Both the position numbers and the translations under genes were made by a program. From Bdellovibrionales bacterium (GTDB lineage Bacteria > Bdellovibrionota > Bdellovibrionia > Bdellovibrionales > UBA1609): a DNA stretch of 50,986 nt. Shown piece by piece: positions 9,948 through 42,505 of this stretch (position 1 is its first letter; each line of letters opens with the position of its first letter). The notes below the pieces were generated by a model, which was given only the letters and a program-made list of their open reading frames with translations, made no database searches and was not told the origin of the DNA. The stretch covers positions 1 through 50,986 of the forward strand of contig SKLV01000030.1 of NCBI GenBank assembly GCA_007121385.1, in the 5' to 3' direction.

Positions 9948-10643
9948 ATGAAATACTTGGCCCCCTTGATCATTTTAAGCATTTGGTTTTTGCCTGGACC
10001 GATCTCCGGAGGGGGAGTCCAAGAGGAGCAAGAATCCCTAGCTCGGGCGCAAAAAGAGGCCTTAAAGCCCCTCGAGACAATCTTGAGTCGCTATCGAAGG
10101 CGATCTCCAGTGCAGATACAGTTGACCAAGGAAGTGCATCAGGAGCTGCTCAATCGCACTCAGTCCAGTGAGGGCCATTTGACCCTGGGTTCGGGGCGCT
10201 TACGGCTGGAGTTGGGTGCTCCTGACAATAGCTTACTGGTTCACGATGGGAGCCTGATCTGGTTGGCGCAAGAAATCGATGGCTTTTCTGGACCCATAAC
10301 CCAGGTGACCAAGATTCGTCCTGACCGCTTAGGGCCAGCGGCCACCCTTTTAAGTGCTCTATTTGAACGGCCCGATTTAGGTCAGGACTTTGAACTGGTC
10401 GAAAAATCCGAGATTGAGGGGGGAGAAAAAGCTTTTTCCCTAAGACCGAGGACCCAGACTGATGTCGTCTCTTTGCGACTTGTGTTGAACCCTGAGAAGA
10501 AGTTGATCACTCAGGTGAGCTTTAAGGACGATTTAAATAATGAGACCCGTTATCTTTTCGGACGGACTCAGTTTTCAGCCAGAGTCAAGCGAGGTCACTT
10601 TGAGTACAAGCCTCCTGAAGGGGCTGAAGTTACGGAGTATTAA
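9948..10643 (+). CDS. lolA: LolA-like periplasmic outer-membrane lipoprotein carrier
   Basis: Predicted to shuttle lipoproteins from the LolCDE complex to the outer membrane. The 231-residue product begins with a hydrophobic signal peptide (1-21), has the LolA-type pattern of a leading helix (ETILSRYRRRSPVQIQ), a beta-rich body (GRLRLELG, LLVHDGSLIWLAQ) and the typical C-terminal strand with PPEGAEVTEY. Sequence identity to LolA is modest by eye, so function rests on fold pattern. It precedes rimO by 6 bp and is likely the first gene of a lolA-rimO unit. Confidence 0.75.
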   Translation: MKYLAPLIILSIWFLPGPISGGGVQEEQESLARAQKEALKPLETILSRYRRRSPVQIQLTKEVHQELLNRTQSSEGHLTLGSGRLRLELGAPDNSLLVHDGSLIWLAQEIDGFSGPITQVTKIRPDRLGPAATLLSALFERPDLGQDFELVEKSEIEGGEKAFSLRPRTQTDVVSLRLVLNPEKKLITQVSFKDDLNNETRYLFGRTQFSARVKRGHFEYKPPEGAEVTEY

Positions 10644-34816: not shown

Positions 34817-36874
34817 TTAGAGCATATTCATGGGATCAATATCAATCTGAACTTTGGTCCCAGGGGGTAGCCATTTTTGCCCCTCCAGCAGCTGCTGCAA
34901 AAACCCCCTGATGATCTGTGGCTGGGGAGCCTTGATCAACATTTGATGGCGGTATTTGTTGCGCAATTTAAGCAGAGGGGCAGGAGCAGGACCTAAAAAC
35001 TGCAGATCCGCATAGGCTTTATTCAGCTCTTTGAGCTTTTCCGCCCTCAGGTAAAGTCGGTCCGAGGCCTGGTCCAAAGCGACCAGACTTTGGGCTTGAA
35101 GGCGCAGCAGAGCCAAGCGGCCAAAAGGGGGGTAGGACAGGGCCTGTCTGGCCGCCAGCTCCTGCTCGGCAAAACCGGCGTAGTCGTTATTGAGACTGTA
35201 GAGGACACTGGGGTGAGAGGGGTTGTAAGTTTGAATGATCACTCGCCCCCTCTCTAAGCTGTGACGACCACTGCGCCCACTCACCTGGGTGAGAAGCTGA
35301 AAGCTGCGCTCGCTGGAGCGAAAGTCAGGGAGGTTAAATCCCACATCGGCCAAAATCAGTCCCACCAAGGTTAGGCCGGGAAAGTCTAAGCCCTTGGCAA
35401 TCATCTGGGTGCCGATCAGCACATCCACTTGCCTGTCCTCTACGGAGCGAATCAGCTCCTCCAGGTCCTGACGGGAGTGGATCTCGTCTCGGTCGGCTCG
35501 GGCCAATCGGGCTTCGGGAAAGAGTCGGGCGATATCGGCCTCAATCAACTCGGTGCCCATGCCCAGAGCCTTGACCTCTCCATCTGGACAGGAGGGGCAA
35601 TCCTCTTTCATCACCTGGGTGTAGTCGCAGTAGTGGCAAACCAGATCCTGTTTGCGGTGGAGGGTGAGGGAGATGGCGCAGTTGGGGCACTCATAGACAA
35701 AGCCGCAGGCCGAACATTGAGCCGTTTGGGCCACTCCTCGGCGATTGAGAAAAAGGGCCACCTGCTCCCTGCGCTCCAGGGTCTTTTCAATTTCCTCGTA
35801 GAGTTCAGAGCTCAGCCAAAAGGGCAGCTCCTCAGCCTCTGCGGCTCCCTCAGGATCTCTTCGCTGTCGCCGGGTTTCGCGGAGATCCACCACCCGAATC
35901 TGTGGCATTTGTCTTTCCGCCACTCGGTGCTGCATTTGGTGTAAGAGGTAGCGCCCCTCTTGGGCATTTTTCCAGGACTCCAAAGAGGGAGTGGCCGAAC
36001 CCAAAATAATGGGACAGTTGTGCATCTTTGCTAAGACAATGGCGGCATCCCGAGCGTGGTAGCGCAGCTTTTCGTCCTGTTTGAAGCTGGCCTCGTGCTC
36101 CTCATCCAAAATCACCAGGCCCCATCGCGGCAGGGGGCAAAACAGGGCTGAGCGGGCCCCGATCAGGATTTTCTTCTCCCCGTCCACCATCTCCCACCAC
36201 TGGTTGGTTTTTTCCCTTTCGGTCAGATGGGAGTGGATCACCGCCACTTGACCTGGAAAGCGAGCCGAAAAGCGAGCCACCAGCTGGGGAGTCAAAGAGA
36301 TCTCGGGCACTAGCACCAAGGCCGGCTCCCCCCGAGCTAAAGTGTCCTCAAGAAGTCTTAAATAGATTTCTGTCTTCCCCGAGCCGGTCACCCCATGCAG
36401 AAGATGAACCTGAAAGTCGGAGTGAGATTGAATGGCTTCAAGACAGGATTTTTGCTCTGAGGTCAGCTCGGGAGGCTTCTGAGGGCCCATGGGGGCCTGG
36501 GGCACCAGAGGAGCTGTTTCAGCTTTGCGGGCTCGTCCCCCCTTTTTTAAGGGAGGGAAAGCCAAAGAGGTCACCTGTCCAATCGGGTGCATGTAGTAGT
36601 CGCTCAGCCAATCGAGCCAGCGCAAAAAGCTCTCGGGCAATCGGGGGTGCTCATCAAGGGCTTCGGTGATCTTTTTGATTTCGTAGGGACCAGGTTCTGG
36701 GGAAGAGGAAAAAATCACACCTTGGGCGCTGCGGGAGCCCAAGGGGAGACGCACCGACTGACCCCGTTCAAAGCTCAGACCCTCAGGAGCTGAGTAGGTC
36801 AGAAGCCCCTTTAAGGGTGCGTTGACAGCCACTTGGTAGTAGGGGCCGGAGATCTGGCTCAGTGAGGAGTTCAT
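34817..36874 (-). CDS. priA: primosomal replication-restart helicase PriA
   Basis: 3'-5' DNA helicase that reloads the replisome at stalled forks. The 685-residue protein has the 3'-DNA-binding domain, Walker A HGVTGSGKTEIYLR (about 160-175), DEEHEASFKQ, GSATPSLES, then the zinc-binding region with paired cysteines (CSACGFVYECPNC and CHYCDY...CPSC), and helicase motifs GTQMIAKGLDFPG and QVSGRSGRHSLERG. Length is normal. It is followed by the CFI-box gene and preceded by galU (24 bp), all on the minus strand. Confidence 0.96.
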   Translation of the reverse strand: MNSSLSQISGPYYQVAVNAPLKGLLTYSAPEGLSFERGQSVRLPLGSRSAQGVIFSSSPEPGPYEIKKITEALDEHPRLPESFLRWLDWLSDYYMHPIGQVTSLAFPPLKKGGRARKAETAPLVPQAPMGPQKPPELTSEQKSCLEAIQSHSDFQVHLLHGVTGSGKTEIYLRLLEDTLARGEPALVLVPEISLTPQLVARFSARFPGQVAVIHSHLTEREKTNQWWEMVDGEKKILIGARSALFCPLPRWGLVILDEEHEASFKQDEKLRYHARDAAIVLAKMHNCPIILGSATPSLESWKNAQEGRYLLHQMQHRVAERQMPQIRVVDLRETRRQRRDPEGAAEAEELPFWLSSELYEEIEKTLERREQVALFLNRRGVAQTAQCSACGFVYECPNCAISLTLHRKQDLVCHYCDYTQVMKEDCPSCPDGEVKALGMGTELIEADIARLFPEARLARADRDEIHSRQDLEELIRSVEDRQVDVLIGTQMIAKGLDFPGLTLVGLILADVGFNLPDFRSSERSFQLLTQVSGRSGRHSLERGRVIIQTYNPSHPSVLYSLNNDYAGFAEQELAARQALSYPPFGRLALLRLQAQSLVALDQASDRLYLRAEKLKELNKAYADLQFLGPAPAPLLKLRNKYRHQMLIKAPQPQIIRGFLQQLLEGQKWLPPGTKVQIDIDPMNML

Positions 36875-36898: not shown

Positions 36899-38647
36899 TT
36901 AGCGAAAGCGGGAGTAAAAATCCCGAATTAGTTCATGATCAGTCATTCGCAAAGGCTCAGTGTTTTGAGCTTGGGTGCGTAGCTCTGCCGGATTGACCAG
37001 GCGCTGACTTTGGGCGTTTTGGGGCAGAGACCTGACCGAGGTCACCTGAACTCGCGCCTGACGCTGACCCCCGGCCCAGGAGATCTCGCGCAGACGGGGC
37101 ATCCACAGACTCCGAGCAAAGGCCTCATAGTCATTGGCCCGAATCAAAACCTCGGAGGGGAGTCTCAGCTTGCGGATCACAAACTGATCTTGCTCAATCC
37201 ACAGGCCTGGCAGCAGCTCAGGACTGTTGAGGGGGGTGGGGGTGCCAAAGGCGTAAGCCACCCCTCCTCCAGTTCGAGACAGGCGGACAAAACTCCCCGC
37301 CTCTTCCTCTGTCTCAGGGGGGAGAATATTGGCCTGGGCCAAAAGGGAGCGAATAGTACTTGAGCGCCGGTAGTGAAAGTAGGGCTCGTGCCAATCGCCC
37401 CCCAATCGGGAGCTGCGCACTTGCCCATCGCTGTCCACCAAATGGCGTTGGTGGGCATCATAGACCAGGGTCATCTTCACCAGGCCCTCCAAAAAGCCCC
37501 GGCCCTCCACCTCCACCCGCATCTGGTACTCATCGCGAATGGTCCAGCGCTCACGCAAGACCAGAGGTTCTGCCTCAGTTTGCAGAATCACATCCTGTTC
37601 AATCTGGTAAAAGCCATTGCCGTTGTTGAGGCCCGTGCGAGACAAAATCATACCAGGATCTGGAATATAGGCCGAGGCCTGGGGACTCCAGCCCCCAGTC
37701 ATCATCAAGAGACCTGTGGTCAAAGCCAGCAGCAGACTCTGAAACCAATTTTGATTTCGGCCCACAAAATCCTTTAAAAATTGGCGAAAGCCCTCCCCCA
37801 AATCCGGGTGTTCAGCCGCCAACTCCACATTGGCCTGCAGATAGCCCAGGCGATCGCCAGCATCAAAGCGGCGGGCTTCAAGAGTCGTGGCCAAAAGACC
37901 TTCATTCTGTGCTAGAGCTGTCATCCCATCGGTCAGTTGGATCTCTCCATTCACTCCGGGGCCCACCTCTTTCAAGTGAGAGAAAATGGCCGAGTCAAAG
38001 ACATAGCGTCCGGGCAGGGCCCACTGACTGGGGGCCTTTTCCGGTTGGGGTTTCTCCACCACCGAGCGAATGCGCAGCAGGCCCCCTGCCTCCTCTTGGG
38101 CCTCCACAATTCCGTACTTGGCGGTTTCGGCCAAAGGCACCTGCATGACGGCCACACAGGAGGTCTCTTGCTCTCCATGCACTTGGCAGAGCTGTTGGAT
38201 GGCCGAGGGCTGATCCGCAGGGGTGATCATCAGCTCGTCCCCCAAAAGCAGGGCAAAGGGCTCTTGCCCCACCACGGGTTCGGCACATAAGACAGCATGA
38301 CCCAGACCTTTGGCCTGCTTTTGCCGCAGACTGATCACTTCCACCATGTCCTTCACTCCAGAAATTCTCTCCAACAGGTCCTGTTTTCCGGCTTTTAGCA
38401 GCTGATCCTCCAGCTCATAGGAGGTGTCAAAAAAGTCCTCAATGGCGGTCTTGCCCCGGCCAGCAATCAGCACCACCTGCTCAATGCCGGCACGGGCAAT
38501 TTCCTCTACGATGTAAAGGAGCCCCGGTTTGTCCACGATGGGCAGCATCTCTTTAGGCACACTTTTACTGGCCGGCAAAAAGCGGGTACCCAGACCGGCT
38601 ACGGGAATAACAGCTTTGCGAATGGAGTGAGGTTTTTGACTTTTCAT
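36899..38647 (-). CDS. galU: GalU (UTP-glucose-1-phosphate uridylyltransferase) joined in frame to a signal-peptide-like segment and an exported domain
   Basis: Residues 1-294 are a complete GalU, which makes UDP-glucose from UTP and glucose-1-phosphate: IPVAGLGTRFLPASKSVPKEM, PIVDKPGLLYIVEEI, LLGDELM, YGIVEAQ, GVNGEIQLTDGM and RFDAGDRLGYLQA. The normal C-terminus should fall near 294, but there is no stop. Residues 301-325 are hydrophobic (WFQSLLLALTTGLLMM), followed by SPQASA/Y, a good signal-peptidase site, then a 256-residue beta-rich domain I do not recognise. A GTG at 37765 with AAAGGA 4-5 nt upstream could start the second protein separately (288 residues). Thus either a membrane-bound fusion or two overlapping products. 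Confidence 0.85.
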   Translation of the reverse strand: MKSQKPHSIRKAVIPVAGLGTRFLPASKSVPKEMLPIVDKPGLLYIVEEIARAGIEQVVLIAGRGKTAIEDFFDTSYELEDQLLKAGKQDLLERISGVKDMVEVISLRQKQAKGLGHAVLCAEPVVGQEPFALLLGDELMITPADQPSAIQQLCQVHGEQETSCVAVMQVPLAETAKYGIVEAQEEAGGLLRIRSVVEKPQPEKAPSQWALPGRYVFDSAIFSHLKEVGPGVNGEIQLTDGMTALAQNEGLLATTLEARRFDAGDRLGYLQANVELAAEHPDLGEGFRQFLKDFVGRNQNWFQSLLLALTTGLLMMTGGWSPQASAYIPDPGMILSRTGLNNGNGFYQIEQDVILQTEAEPLVLRERWTIRDEYQMRVEVEGRGFLEGLVKMTLVYDAHQRHLVDSDGQVRSSRLGGDWHEPYFHYRRSSTIRSLLAQANILPPETEEEAGSFVRLSRTGGGVAYAFGTPTPLNSPELLPGLWIEQDQFVIRKLRLPSEVLIRANDYEAFARSLWMPRLREISWAGGQRQARVQVTSVRSLPQNAQSQRLVNPAELRTQAQNTEPLRMTDHELIRDFYSRFR

Positions 38648-38784: not shown

Positions 38785-39990
38785 ATGAGAAAAATTCCCA
38801 TTTCCAAACACAAGCTTATGGGTCTGGGGACAGCTCTTATTGTCTCAAGCCTTCTCCTCTTCCAAAACTGTGACCAGCCTCTCCCCGGCGAGGAAGAGCA
38901 TATGCAGAGCTTCTACCGGTCTCTGCCCTTTGCCTACGAGACCAAGGTGGACACAGTGGCCCATATGAGCTGTGTAAACAGAAGTCCGCAAAGTGAAGAG
39001 CAGCTAAGAAACCTCTTTACCTTTTATGTGGGAGCTCACAGGCCCGGAACCGGAGTGCGTCTCAGCCCAGACTACTTAGAGAAGACTAAATATCTGAGAG
39101 TGGATGAGCTCCTGGACTCCCTGCGCAGCAGCCCCATTAACAGTCAAGCTCAGCCTCAGCTGTGGATACGACCCACCGCGAATCTTCAGGGTGCCTTTAT
39201 TCCAGATATAGGCTCTCCCGCAGAGGGAATGGACTACGACAACATGACATTTAACACCTTGGACAGTTGGGAGATTGCCCCTCAGCTTGTGCAGAGCCCG
39301 GGCTCGTTTTTGCGCTTTTTTGAGAGCAACAGCATTTCTGGTAGTAGAAGATTTGAAGGGCGACTCCGCTTAATGGGAGATGGCGATGAAGCCAGAGAGA
39401 ATATGATTATAGGTCTTAGTGGAGAGTCAATAAATCGTAATGGACAGCGAGAGGACAGCTATCTCAGCTTAAGTTTTTTGCGGGGCCCCCAGGGTAGCAC
39501 TGGGGTTTGGGCTCCTGAATCGGGAAACCCTGAGAGGCAGATTTTTGGCCAGGGTTTTGCTTTGAATCTAGCTCCCGCCCCAGGCTCTACTAATGCGGTG
39601 TTAAACCGGCGAGTGTTAAGCCAAGTGAGGGAGCACAATCTGGAATTGCCGTCGGGCAGCCAAGCCGTCCCAAGAACCTGGACCTGCCCTGAAAATTTGC
39701 GGTTTATGATTTTGCGCCCAGAGGATGTCGGAAGCCAAAATGCACTCTGTACTGAAGAGGACAATGAGAACAATATCGACCCTCGGATCATACAAATTCT
39801 CGATCTCAATTACTGGGCTGTGAGCCCCAGTGGACGCTGTATCTATCCCAGGGTTAATTCGGAGGGCAGGGTTCCGCCTCAGTGCTATGCCTCTGAGATC
39901 CAGACAGTGAATTACTCCGGCAGTCCTTGCGACCCCAAGGGCCGTGAGAATGCCTGCCCCCATTATTTCTCCATCTGCTACGCCCTTTAG
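38785..39990 (+). CDS. large predicted lipoprotein, unknown function
   Basis: A 401-residue protein with an N-terminal signal ending in FQNC (Cys29), a lipobox form I associate with Bdellovibrio-type bacteria. The mature part contains a helical region (QSEEQLRNLFTFYVGAHRPGTG), a predicted beta-rich central domain and a cysteine-bearing C-terminus (eight or so Cys, e.g. SGRCIYPRV, CPHYFSICY) likely disulfide-bonded outside the cytoplasm. No family recognised. ATG 38785 lacks a Shine-Dalgarno; TACCAT 6 nt upstream could be a -10 for a leaderless message. An internal ATG at 38818 is the alternative but would shorten the signal. Confidence 0.75.
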   Translation: MRKIPISKHKLMGLGTALIVSSLLLFQNCDQPLPGEEEHMQSFYRSLPFAYETKVDTVAHMSCVNRSPQSEEQLRNLFTFYVGAHRPGTGVRLSPDYLEKTKYLRVDELLDSLRSSPINSQAQPQLWIRPTANLQGAFIPDIGSPAEGMDYDNMTFNTLDSWEIAPQLVQSPGSFLRFFESNSISGSRRFEGRLRLMGDGDEARENMIIGLSGESINRNGQREDSYLSLSFLRGPQGSTGVWAPESGNPERQIFGQGFALNLAPAPGSTNAVLNRRVLSQVREHNLELPSGSQAVPRTWTCPENLRFMILRPEDVGSQNALCTEEDNENNIDPRIIQILDLNYWAVSPSGRCIYPRVNSEGRVPPQCYASEIQTVNYSGSPCDPKGRENACPHYFSICYAL

Positions 39991-40110: not shown

Positions 40111-41016
40111 GTGAACTCCTGCAAAATTAAACTCCCTCTCTTCTTATTGGTTCTTCTCTCTTTTTGGCTGGCAAAGCCTCTTAAGGCCCAGGTCTTTGTG
40201 GGGCCGACAGCAGCGGCCATGGGCAGTGCGGGAAGGGCCGGGGCTGAGGCCGCAGAGGGGGTTTTCTTTAACCCCGCTGTTTTGTCCCATATCCCCATGG
40301 TGAAGATGGGGGCTTTCTATTCCTCGGGTCAGCCCCAGTCCGGAGAAAGCCAGCAGACTCTGGCCTTTTCGCTGATTGATGGCAATCCAGAGGCCATTAT
40401 TCCAGGGGCCGTCAATTACTTGCGGCGCTCGCGAGATTTTGAAGCCGGCCCGGCCTGGAAAGAAGAGTTGTGGCAGGTCAGTGTGGGTCAGTTTGTCTTG
40501 CCTCGCTGGGCTTTGGGGGCCTCCCTTTTTCGTTTTTCAGCCCAACCGGAAGAGGCTTGGGGCGGCAGCTTCTCCCCCCCGGAGAGCTCCGCTCAGTGGA
40601 ATGGCAACTTAGGTCTGCTCTACACTCCCCGAGCAGATCTGGGTCTGGCCCTCACCTATCACAACTTGCTTCCCTCTAGCTCTCGGGTGGCTGAGGAGTT
40701 TCGCCTGATTCCCCATATGGGGTTGGGGGCCAACTACTTGCTCAGCGATTTCTTTCGGCTGCGGATGGACTTGGTCAAGTATCTGGATCGGAACCCGGAT
40801 AGCCGAATGAATGTGGCCTTTGGTTTTGAGAGTCTTTTTTCCGAGTTTTTTGCCCTCCGCCTGGGCTCCCACTGGGATGAGTTTCGCAGCCGCCACAGCT
40901 GGACCGCCGGCTTGGGCTTTCGCGGCCCCCGTTTTTTGCTGGATTACAGCCTGGAAAGGCATAGAGAGGGTGGCGGCGCAGTGCATAGCGTTGACTTGCG
41001 TCTGCCCTTTTGGTAG
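40111..41016 (+). CDS. outer-membrane beta-barrel protein (PorV/FadL-like pattern)
   Basis: A 301-residue protein with signal peptide (1-26, ending KAQ) and the motif GPTAAAMGSAGRAGAEAAEGVFFNPAVL, given here as its halves GPTAAAMGSAGRAG and GVFFNPAVL, which resembles the plug-like N-terminus of PorV/FadL/UPF0164 outer-membrane proteins. The remainder shows alternating strands (LGASLFRFSAQ, LGLALTYHNL, FLLDYSLERH) and ends in Phe-Trp, as expected for a BAM-assembled barrel. The start is GTG; a GGAG lies only 3 nt upstream, and no better start exists. Substrate unknown. Confidence 0.78.
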   Translation: MNSCKIKLPLFLLVLLSFWLAKPLKAQVFVGPTAAAMGSAGRAGAEAAEGVFFNPAVLSHIPMVKMGAFYSSGQPQSGESQQTLAFSLIDGNPEAIIPGAVNYLRRSRDFEAGPAWKEELWQVSVGQFVLPRWALGASLFRFSAQPEEAWGGSFSPPESSAQWNGNLGLLYTPRADLGLALTYHNLLPSSSRVAEEFRLIPHMGLGANYLLSDFFRLRMDLVKYLDRNPDSRMNVAFGFESLFSEFFALRLGSHWDEFRSRHSWTAGLGFRGPRFLLDYSLERHREGGGAVHSVDLRLPFW

Positions 41017-41200: not shown

Positions 41201-42505
41201 CTATTTAGCCTCACCCACTCTCAGCCGAGCGGGTAGAGGTTCGGCCTCGCCCCGCAGAGAAAATACCACCGGATGACTTGTCCAGCCCTGTTGACCTGGG
41301 CGGTAGCGGTAGTTCTGAATGGCGGTTAAAGCCTCCCTGTCTAAAATGTCATGTCCCGAGGACTGCAGCAGTCTCAATCGATCCACTCGGCCCTCAGGGG
41401 TCACGTAGTAGGCCAAGAGCACTGTGCCCTGCCAGCCATTTTTGCGCGCCACTGTGGGGTAGTTGGGAGGACGATTTCCCGGAGCCTGAGTTAAATCCAA
41501 ATGGGAGCGGGTGCCCTCAGGCAGACCAAATGGCAAATCCGACTGAGCTCGGCCGGGGCCTTGCCCCTGAGCTCCTTGTTGTGCCTGTTGCCGGGCCTGT
41601 TTCTGTGCTGCCAATTGTTGCGCTCTCTGCTGAGCCTCTCGCTCAGCCTGCTCTCGCGCCCGTTGCTGAGCAGCCAACTCTTGGGCCTTCTCTTGAGCCT
41701 CTTGTTCAGCCTGCCTGCGCACCATTTGCTCCTGTTGCTGTCTTGCCAGTTCTTCGGCTTCTTGTTGGGCTATCTTCAATGCCGCCTGTTGTTCTTGCAA
41801 CTCCGCTTGTCTTTCTAGCTCGGCCTGTCTCTCCAGCTCGGCCTGTCTCTCCAGCTCGGCCTGTCTCTCCAGCTCGGCCTGCTGGCGGCGCTCCACCTCG
41901 GCAAACTCTCTCTCTGCTGCGGCCTGAGCCTGAAGGCGGGCCTCCTCTCTCTCTCTCGCTCTCTCTGCTGCCGCCTGCTCTCGCAGCTGTTGTCTTTCTC
42001 GGTGAGCCGCCTCCAAAGCCTCAATCTCTCTCAGTTCTCTCTCCCACTCTGCTTCCCCACTCATAGGAACCATCTTCTCTGGATCTGGAGACTCCTCGGC
42101 GACTTGCTGTTGGCGCTCAGACTCGGAAAACTCTCTCTCTGCTGCGGCCTGAGTCTGAATGTCGGCCTCTTGAGGGCTCACTTGAGCCACGGCCACCGCC
42201 GGTCGCAATCGAGGGGGAGGTAACTCCTCTCTTAATGAATGAGTCTCAACGTGCTCTGCTTTAAGGCCTCCCCCATCCATTGGCTTAGGGCCAATCTCCG
42301 GAGTTAAAGTCTGCAGCCCCTTAGGGGCCTCCAGAGCCGTGAACTCAATGGTCACAGTCTCACCGACAGGGAAACTCTCCTTGGGCAAAATGTCCAAATA
42401 GGGTAAGGCCACCAGGCCGGCCACCGCTGCCGAGTGCACCATCAAAGACAGGCTCAAGCCGTTAGAGAGCTTGCTAGGAATAAATTCTAAACCAGGGGAC
42501 AACAT
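41201..42505 (-). CDS. TonB/TolA-like energy transducer with long coiled coil
   Basis: A 434-residue protein. A single hydrophobic segment (about 20-45, LSLMVHSAAVAGLVALPYL) anchors it to the inner membrane, followed by a periplasmic linker and a very long Glu/Arg/Gln/Ala coiled coil (about 125-300) like TolA domain II. The C-terminal 90 residues form a TonB domain: PPNYPTVARKNGWQGTVLL, YYVTPEGRVDRLRLLQSSG, LDREALTAIQNYRYRPG. No exbB/exbD or tolQR gene is adjacent. The coil has tandem ERQAEL hexapeptides and a duplicated QAAAEREF block. TonB versus TolA role cannot be decided by sequence alone. Confidence 0.85.
   Translation of the reverse strand: MLSPGLEFIPSKLSNGLSLSLMVHSAAVAGLVALPYLDILPKESFPVGETVTIEFTALEAPKGLQTLTPEIGPKPMDGGGLKAEHVETHSLREELPPPRLRPAVAVAQVSPQEADIQTQAAAEREFSESERQQQVAEESPDPEKMVPMSGEAEWERELREIEALEAAHRERQQLREQAAAERAREREEARLQAQAAAEREFAEVERRQQAELERQAELERQAELERQAELERQAELQEQQAALKIAQQEAEELARQQQEQMVRRQAEQEAQEKAQELAAQQRAREQAEREAQQRAQQLAAQKQARQQAQQGAQGQGPGRAQSDLPFGLPEGTRSHLDLTQAPGNRPPNYPTVARKNGWQGTVLLAYYVTPEGRVDRLRLLQSSGHDILDREALTAIQNYRYRPGQQGWTSHPVVFSLRGEAEPLPARLRVGEAK
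41801..41881. repeat. 18-bp tandem repeat inside the TonB-like coiled coil
   Basis: CTCGGCCTGTCTCTCCAG occurs three times exactly (41819-41872), with a degenerate copy before (41801) and half a copy after. On the coding strand each unit encodes six residues (ERQAEL), so unit gain or loss keeps the frame. Confidence 0.9.

Follow-up and report, generated by a model that had tools for sequence, protein, structure and literature searches.

Known enzymes of the GalU family (UTP--glucose-1-phosphate uridylyltransferases) are soluble, cytoplasmic proteins that end near residue 290-300. Bacteria also make polyproteins with an internal signal peptide, such as the FbcH cytochrome b/c1 precursor of Bradyrhizobium, and they make ToxR/CadC-type proteins, which are transcription regulators with sensor domains. 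Our search of the literature on GalU fusions, on Bdellovibrio GalU and on the fbcH precedent found nothing usable.

The gene described here, galU-X, lies in a window of 50,986 nucleotides (the whole stretch of DNA analysed) from a Bdellovibrionales bacterium. A first-pass annotation of the window had read a single open frame of 582 codons at this place without naming its strand, and this frame is indeed present, running with its stop codon from 38647 to 36899 on the minus strand (36899..38647). The same unbroken frame occurs in a sister species (genome G001, locus L002), the only further member of the genus available for comparison. As in FbcH, two proteins would be made as one chain, the second of them exported by an internal cleavable signal, with cleavage in galU-X a prediction; the first part of FbcH is a membrane protein, whereas here it is a soluble enzyme. 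The arrangement of soluble enzyme, internal signal and exported domain is uncommon. The fused proteins of the two species share 77% identity (about 72% at the nucleotide level), with 83% in the GalU part, 76% in X and 40% in the junction between them, and the two genes differ at 51% of third codon positions, which is near saturation. The fusion is known from these two genomes, both of them draft assemblies of many contigs.

The GalU part and the X domain

Residues 1-294 (37766..38647, minus strand) are a full GalU, as had been proposed. They match PF00483 at residues 8-276 (E 1.4e-25 in the Pfam scan) and TIGR01099 over its whole length (profile positions 1-261 of 261, E 2e-97), the latter scoring 325.8 bits in the protein scan and 328.5 bits in the genome search against a cut-off of 326.8. 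The signature residues of the nucleotidyltransferase are invariant across the read-through alignment, and in a Foldseek search the modelled GalU part (AlphaFold2) aligned with solved structures of GalU (5i1f, TMt 0.87). In extent, signature residues and fold this part is thus like GalU (TIGR01099), and its activity is predicted; known GalUs end here, whereas in this chain a hydrophobic segment and then an exported domain follow. A paralogous soluble GalU elsewhere was considered and rejected, since a genome-wide search with the GalU model returned no second GalU and its other matches were two short fragments (E ~0.003). As the sole copy found, the fused frame would likely supply the cell's GalU.

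Mature X is placed at residues 327-582 (36902..37669, minus strand) and agrees in size with the 256-residue exported domain that the first reading predicted. It matches no Pfam or NCBIfam family, its 49 homologues have no such family in common, and a sequence search of X against the PDB gave nothing significant. The AlphaFold2 model of mature X, built from 49 aligned sequences (pLDDT 93.8, pTM 0.90), is a helix with a half-barrel, an incomplete beta-barrel. Foldseek aligned it to 64 PDB chains at E <= 0.001, and nearly all of the best 50 of these 64 are of LolA/LolB/RseB/LprG type or DUF1329; the top matches are 3bk5, 9tp6, 3buu and 1iwm, and P. gingivalis LolA3, LolB, LolA and RseB are included. 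The likeness to the LolA superfamily is given a Foldseek probability of 1.0 with E down to 2e-9, but TM-scores are moderate (~0.3-0.6) and identity low (~4-15%), so that X shares the LolA fold rather than membership of the LolA carrier family. By its model, then, X is of the LolA/LolB/RseB fold class, and on the strength of this fold a lipid- or lipoprotein-binding role is plausible. The modelled fold is what X has in common with this superfamily (3bk5, 3buu, 1iwm, 2v42), whereas PF03548 and other Pfam matches are absent from X and the genome has a separate canonical LolA. That gene (9948-10643, plus strand; PF03548, E 5e-10) is the only PF03548 match in the genome, and we rejected on this ground the idea that X is the genome's own LolA. 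The sister species likewise carries its LolA on the contig of galU.

The genomes that we surveyed number 47 in the family, 141 in the order and 369 in the phylum. The X family is nearly confined to the Bdellovibrionales-like order; weak profile matches outside it (E 1e-10 to 1e-3, in genomes of family f26 such as G352 and G334) suggest distant X homologues in another lineage of the phylum. In most genomes of the order X has priA as its neighbour, and where a locus extends far enough to tell, priA nearly always follows X. Here priA (34817..36874, minus strand; TIGR00595, synteny) lies 24 nt downstream of galU-X. The pairing persists in five genomes with no detected galU (G002, G014, G018, G029 and G066, 83-95% complete), where X sits between the divergent neighbour described below and priA, and in a genome of another genus (G042) a long distance on the same contig separates X from galU, yet X still adjoins priA. 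An earlier suggestion that the outside domain senses or uses UDP-glucose is left unsupported by this distribution: the constant partner of X is priA, also where galU is missing, which argues against a UDP-glucose sensor.

Several neighbouring genes are conserved or distinctive in their own right. Divergent from galU is a gene for a 401-residue protein (38785-39990, plus strand) whose N-terminus (LLFQNC) is possibly lipoprotein-like and which matches neither Pfam nor NCBIfam; it stands beside galU-X in many relatives, at ~20-39% identity, and also occurs in galU-less genomes. Downstream of priA is a gene for a protein with a CFI-box C-terminal domain (NF041770; 33893-34783, minus strand), whose place is conserved across the order and which follows priA in the longer loci of relatives. 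Beyond the 401-residue protein lie a probable outer-membrane protein (40111-41016, plus strand) with weak similarity to PorV/PorQ (NF033709, below cut-off) and a protein with a TonB C-terminal domain (41201-42505, minus strand), the long centre of which is rich in Glu, Gln, Ala and Arg and carries tandem QAELER-like repeats.

Signal peptide, anchor or internal start at the junction

The junction (residues 295-326; 37670..37765, minus strand) consists of a short polar linker, a hydrophobic segment of ~18 residues and a signal-peptidase-like A-S-A site. The first-pass annotation was right that a signal-like segment ending in A-S-A is present, and its limits of 301-325 were off by one, the hydrophobic stretch covering ~302-321 and A-S-A falling at 324-326. 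A hydrophobic h-region and an A-x-A motif precede the mature start, which reads ASA/YIP here and AWA/YIP in the sister species, and YIP is common to the relatives. That A-x-A is kept before YIP in both fused proteins, in a segment that has diverged to 40% identity around it, makes it our preferred outcome that signal peptidase I cuts the chain and sets X free. We favour, with moderate confidence, a GalU-signal-X polyprotein that arose by stop loss, is oriented N-in/C-out and probably has X released by signal peptidase. The last common ancestor of the genus would have lost the galU stop, and a single polypeptide would now be made. GalU would fold in the cytoplasm; the former X signal peptide, emerging next, would direct X through the Sec translocon in an N-in/C-out orientation, and X would take up its LolA-like fold in the periplasm. 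Signal peptidase I would most likely still cut behind A-S-A (in the sister, A-W-A); X would thereby be freed, and GalU would keep a hydrophobic tail at the inner membrane.

Permanent tethering is unlikely, yet the TM-like segment of the sister species makes an uncleaved chain a serious rival, and it is the main one. The whole protein would then be a type II membrane protein with GalU inside, one transmembrane helix and the LolA-fold domain outside, and UDP-glucose synthesis would be anchored at the inner membrane. The fused frame has been kept in two divergent species, the model runs the C-terminal helix of GalU (H284-297) almost directly into a transmembrane helix (H299-318), and the segment of the sister is strongly hydrophobic (KD mean 2.4 over 19 residues). 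Its summed insertion score on a simple scale is -0.7, against +3.6 in the source species and a median of +3.0 among relatives; on this scale, the segment is signal-like rather than anchor-like in the source species and more TM-like in the sister. Against a tether, both fused proteins retain A-x-A ahead of YIP, the segment here is no more anchor-like than the ordinary signal peptides of relatives, and in those relatives X and GalU are not linked in function. Proteins of the ToxR/CadC type offer the architecture that a tether needs, with a soluble cytoplasmic domain, one transmembrane helix and a C-terminal periplasmic domain, but they are regulators with sensor domains, and evidence of sensing is lacking for galU-X. 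A further step, in which the helix ties UDP-glucose synthesis to a periplasmic domain that binds lipid or lipoprotein through its LolA fold, is quite improbable; if true, envelope glycolipid or lipoprotein traffic would be coupled to UDP-glucose supply within one protein.

We give similarly little credence to the proposal that X is made separately from a nested GTG at 37765 (codon 295; 37763..37765, minus strand), with readthrough from galU incidental. The GTG has AAGGA 4 nt upstream, the n-region that it would yield contains one Arg, and in relatives X has a coupled start at this position. The codon is not conserved, however: the sister species has GTC. No ribosome-binding site precedes the in-frame ATGs of the sister (duplex energy +0.9 to +1.5 kcal/mol), and they supply no basic n-region residue. 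Across all in-frame starts before mature X in the sister, duplex energies run from +0.6 to +1.5 kcal/mol with no anti-Shine-Dalgarno pairing, and the signal peptide read from the first ATG has neither Lys nor Arg. Relatives with separate genes show start pairing in nearly all cases (duplex mostly -4 to -10.7 kcal/mol; L037 is the exception), and most have a basic n-region of MK- or MKK-type; in both fused proteins the end of GalU provides the basic residues that membrane orientation requires. Nor is AAGGA specific, as it falls in conserved GalU codons for Leu-Lys-Asp/Glu, and 23.5% of random sites in the window have a duplex at least as strong as -5.4. Over 37 long frames of the window the median is -3.3, hardly better than the random value of -2.7, which makes ribosome-binding-site strength weak evidence within the source species; it is better evidence when compared with relatives. 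Use of the GTG would not prevent synthesis of the fusion too, since the galU frame lacks a stop. The GTG with its AAGGA could give some additional separate X in the source species, and for the genus one polypeptide is the simplest and most likely reading. Loss of the galU stop through an error of sequencing or assembly, as the first-pass annotation had allowed, is hardly credible, because although the source genome is a draft assembly of 178 contigs, the sister sequence comes from a separate assembly, is 28% diverged with different junction codons, and is likewise free of a stop, so that a sequencing mistake is no explanation.

Origin and meaning of the fusion

The stop-free frame of the sister species bears out the first of the two alternatives originally offered, a real fusion of GalU with an exported domain, and the sequences compared show it to be true, inherited and genus-specific. 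The expectation that relatives consistently keep two genes holds outside the genus and fails within it: galU and X are separate, and galU has its own stop, in 49 of the 49 other junctions read in the same family and order. In nearly all of these pairs the two genes adjoin each other, closely coupled, in a conserved galU-X-priA cluster; most X starts are no farther than ~55 nt from the stop of galU, with which many share an ATGA overlap. The gene order of this cluster, and an exported X directly behind galU, are shared with the fused gene; the cluster has a galU stop and a start for X of its own, whereas the fused gene has neither. X already lies in the galU frame in 26 of the 49 separate pairs, so that one stop loss suffices to fuse the two. 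Among the matches listed, frames longer than 359 residues with an X match are found in G000 and G001 only, and a second galU fusion reported in G116 (open frame 504) was rejected, there being two genes with a stop between them.

In a tree of GalU and X the two fused proteins form one clade (support 100/100) within family members that have separate genes, which points to a single origin of the fusion through loss of the galU stop. Separate neighbours in the outgroups and one frame in a single clade are what we observe; the fusion is derived, is known in this genus only, and most likely arose once. Around the former X start the closest relative (L003) reads W-F-M, the source species W-F-Q and the sister A-M-F, so that the ancestral ATG of X can be located only approximately. 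The persistence of X without galU suggests tight translational coupling as the source of the fusion. Coupling of adjacent genes is discussed elsewhere (PMC3711429), in a paper that does not cover the galU-X case.

In function, the result would be the old coupled pair, now produced as a polyprotein, and little would be new about what it does. Rather than a new sensor, galU-X is most likely a minor evolutionary modification of an old operon of two genes. It is a clear natural example of a cytoplasmic housekeeping enzyme joined to an exported protein through a former signal peptide. As such it may serve as a test case for whether signal peptidase can process an internal signal that follows a folded domain of 294 residues, and for whether a gene fusion needs a functional link beyond translational coupling. 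The fusion also draws attention to X itself, an exported family with a predicted LolA fold that has no Pfam family.
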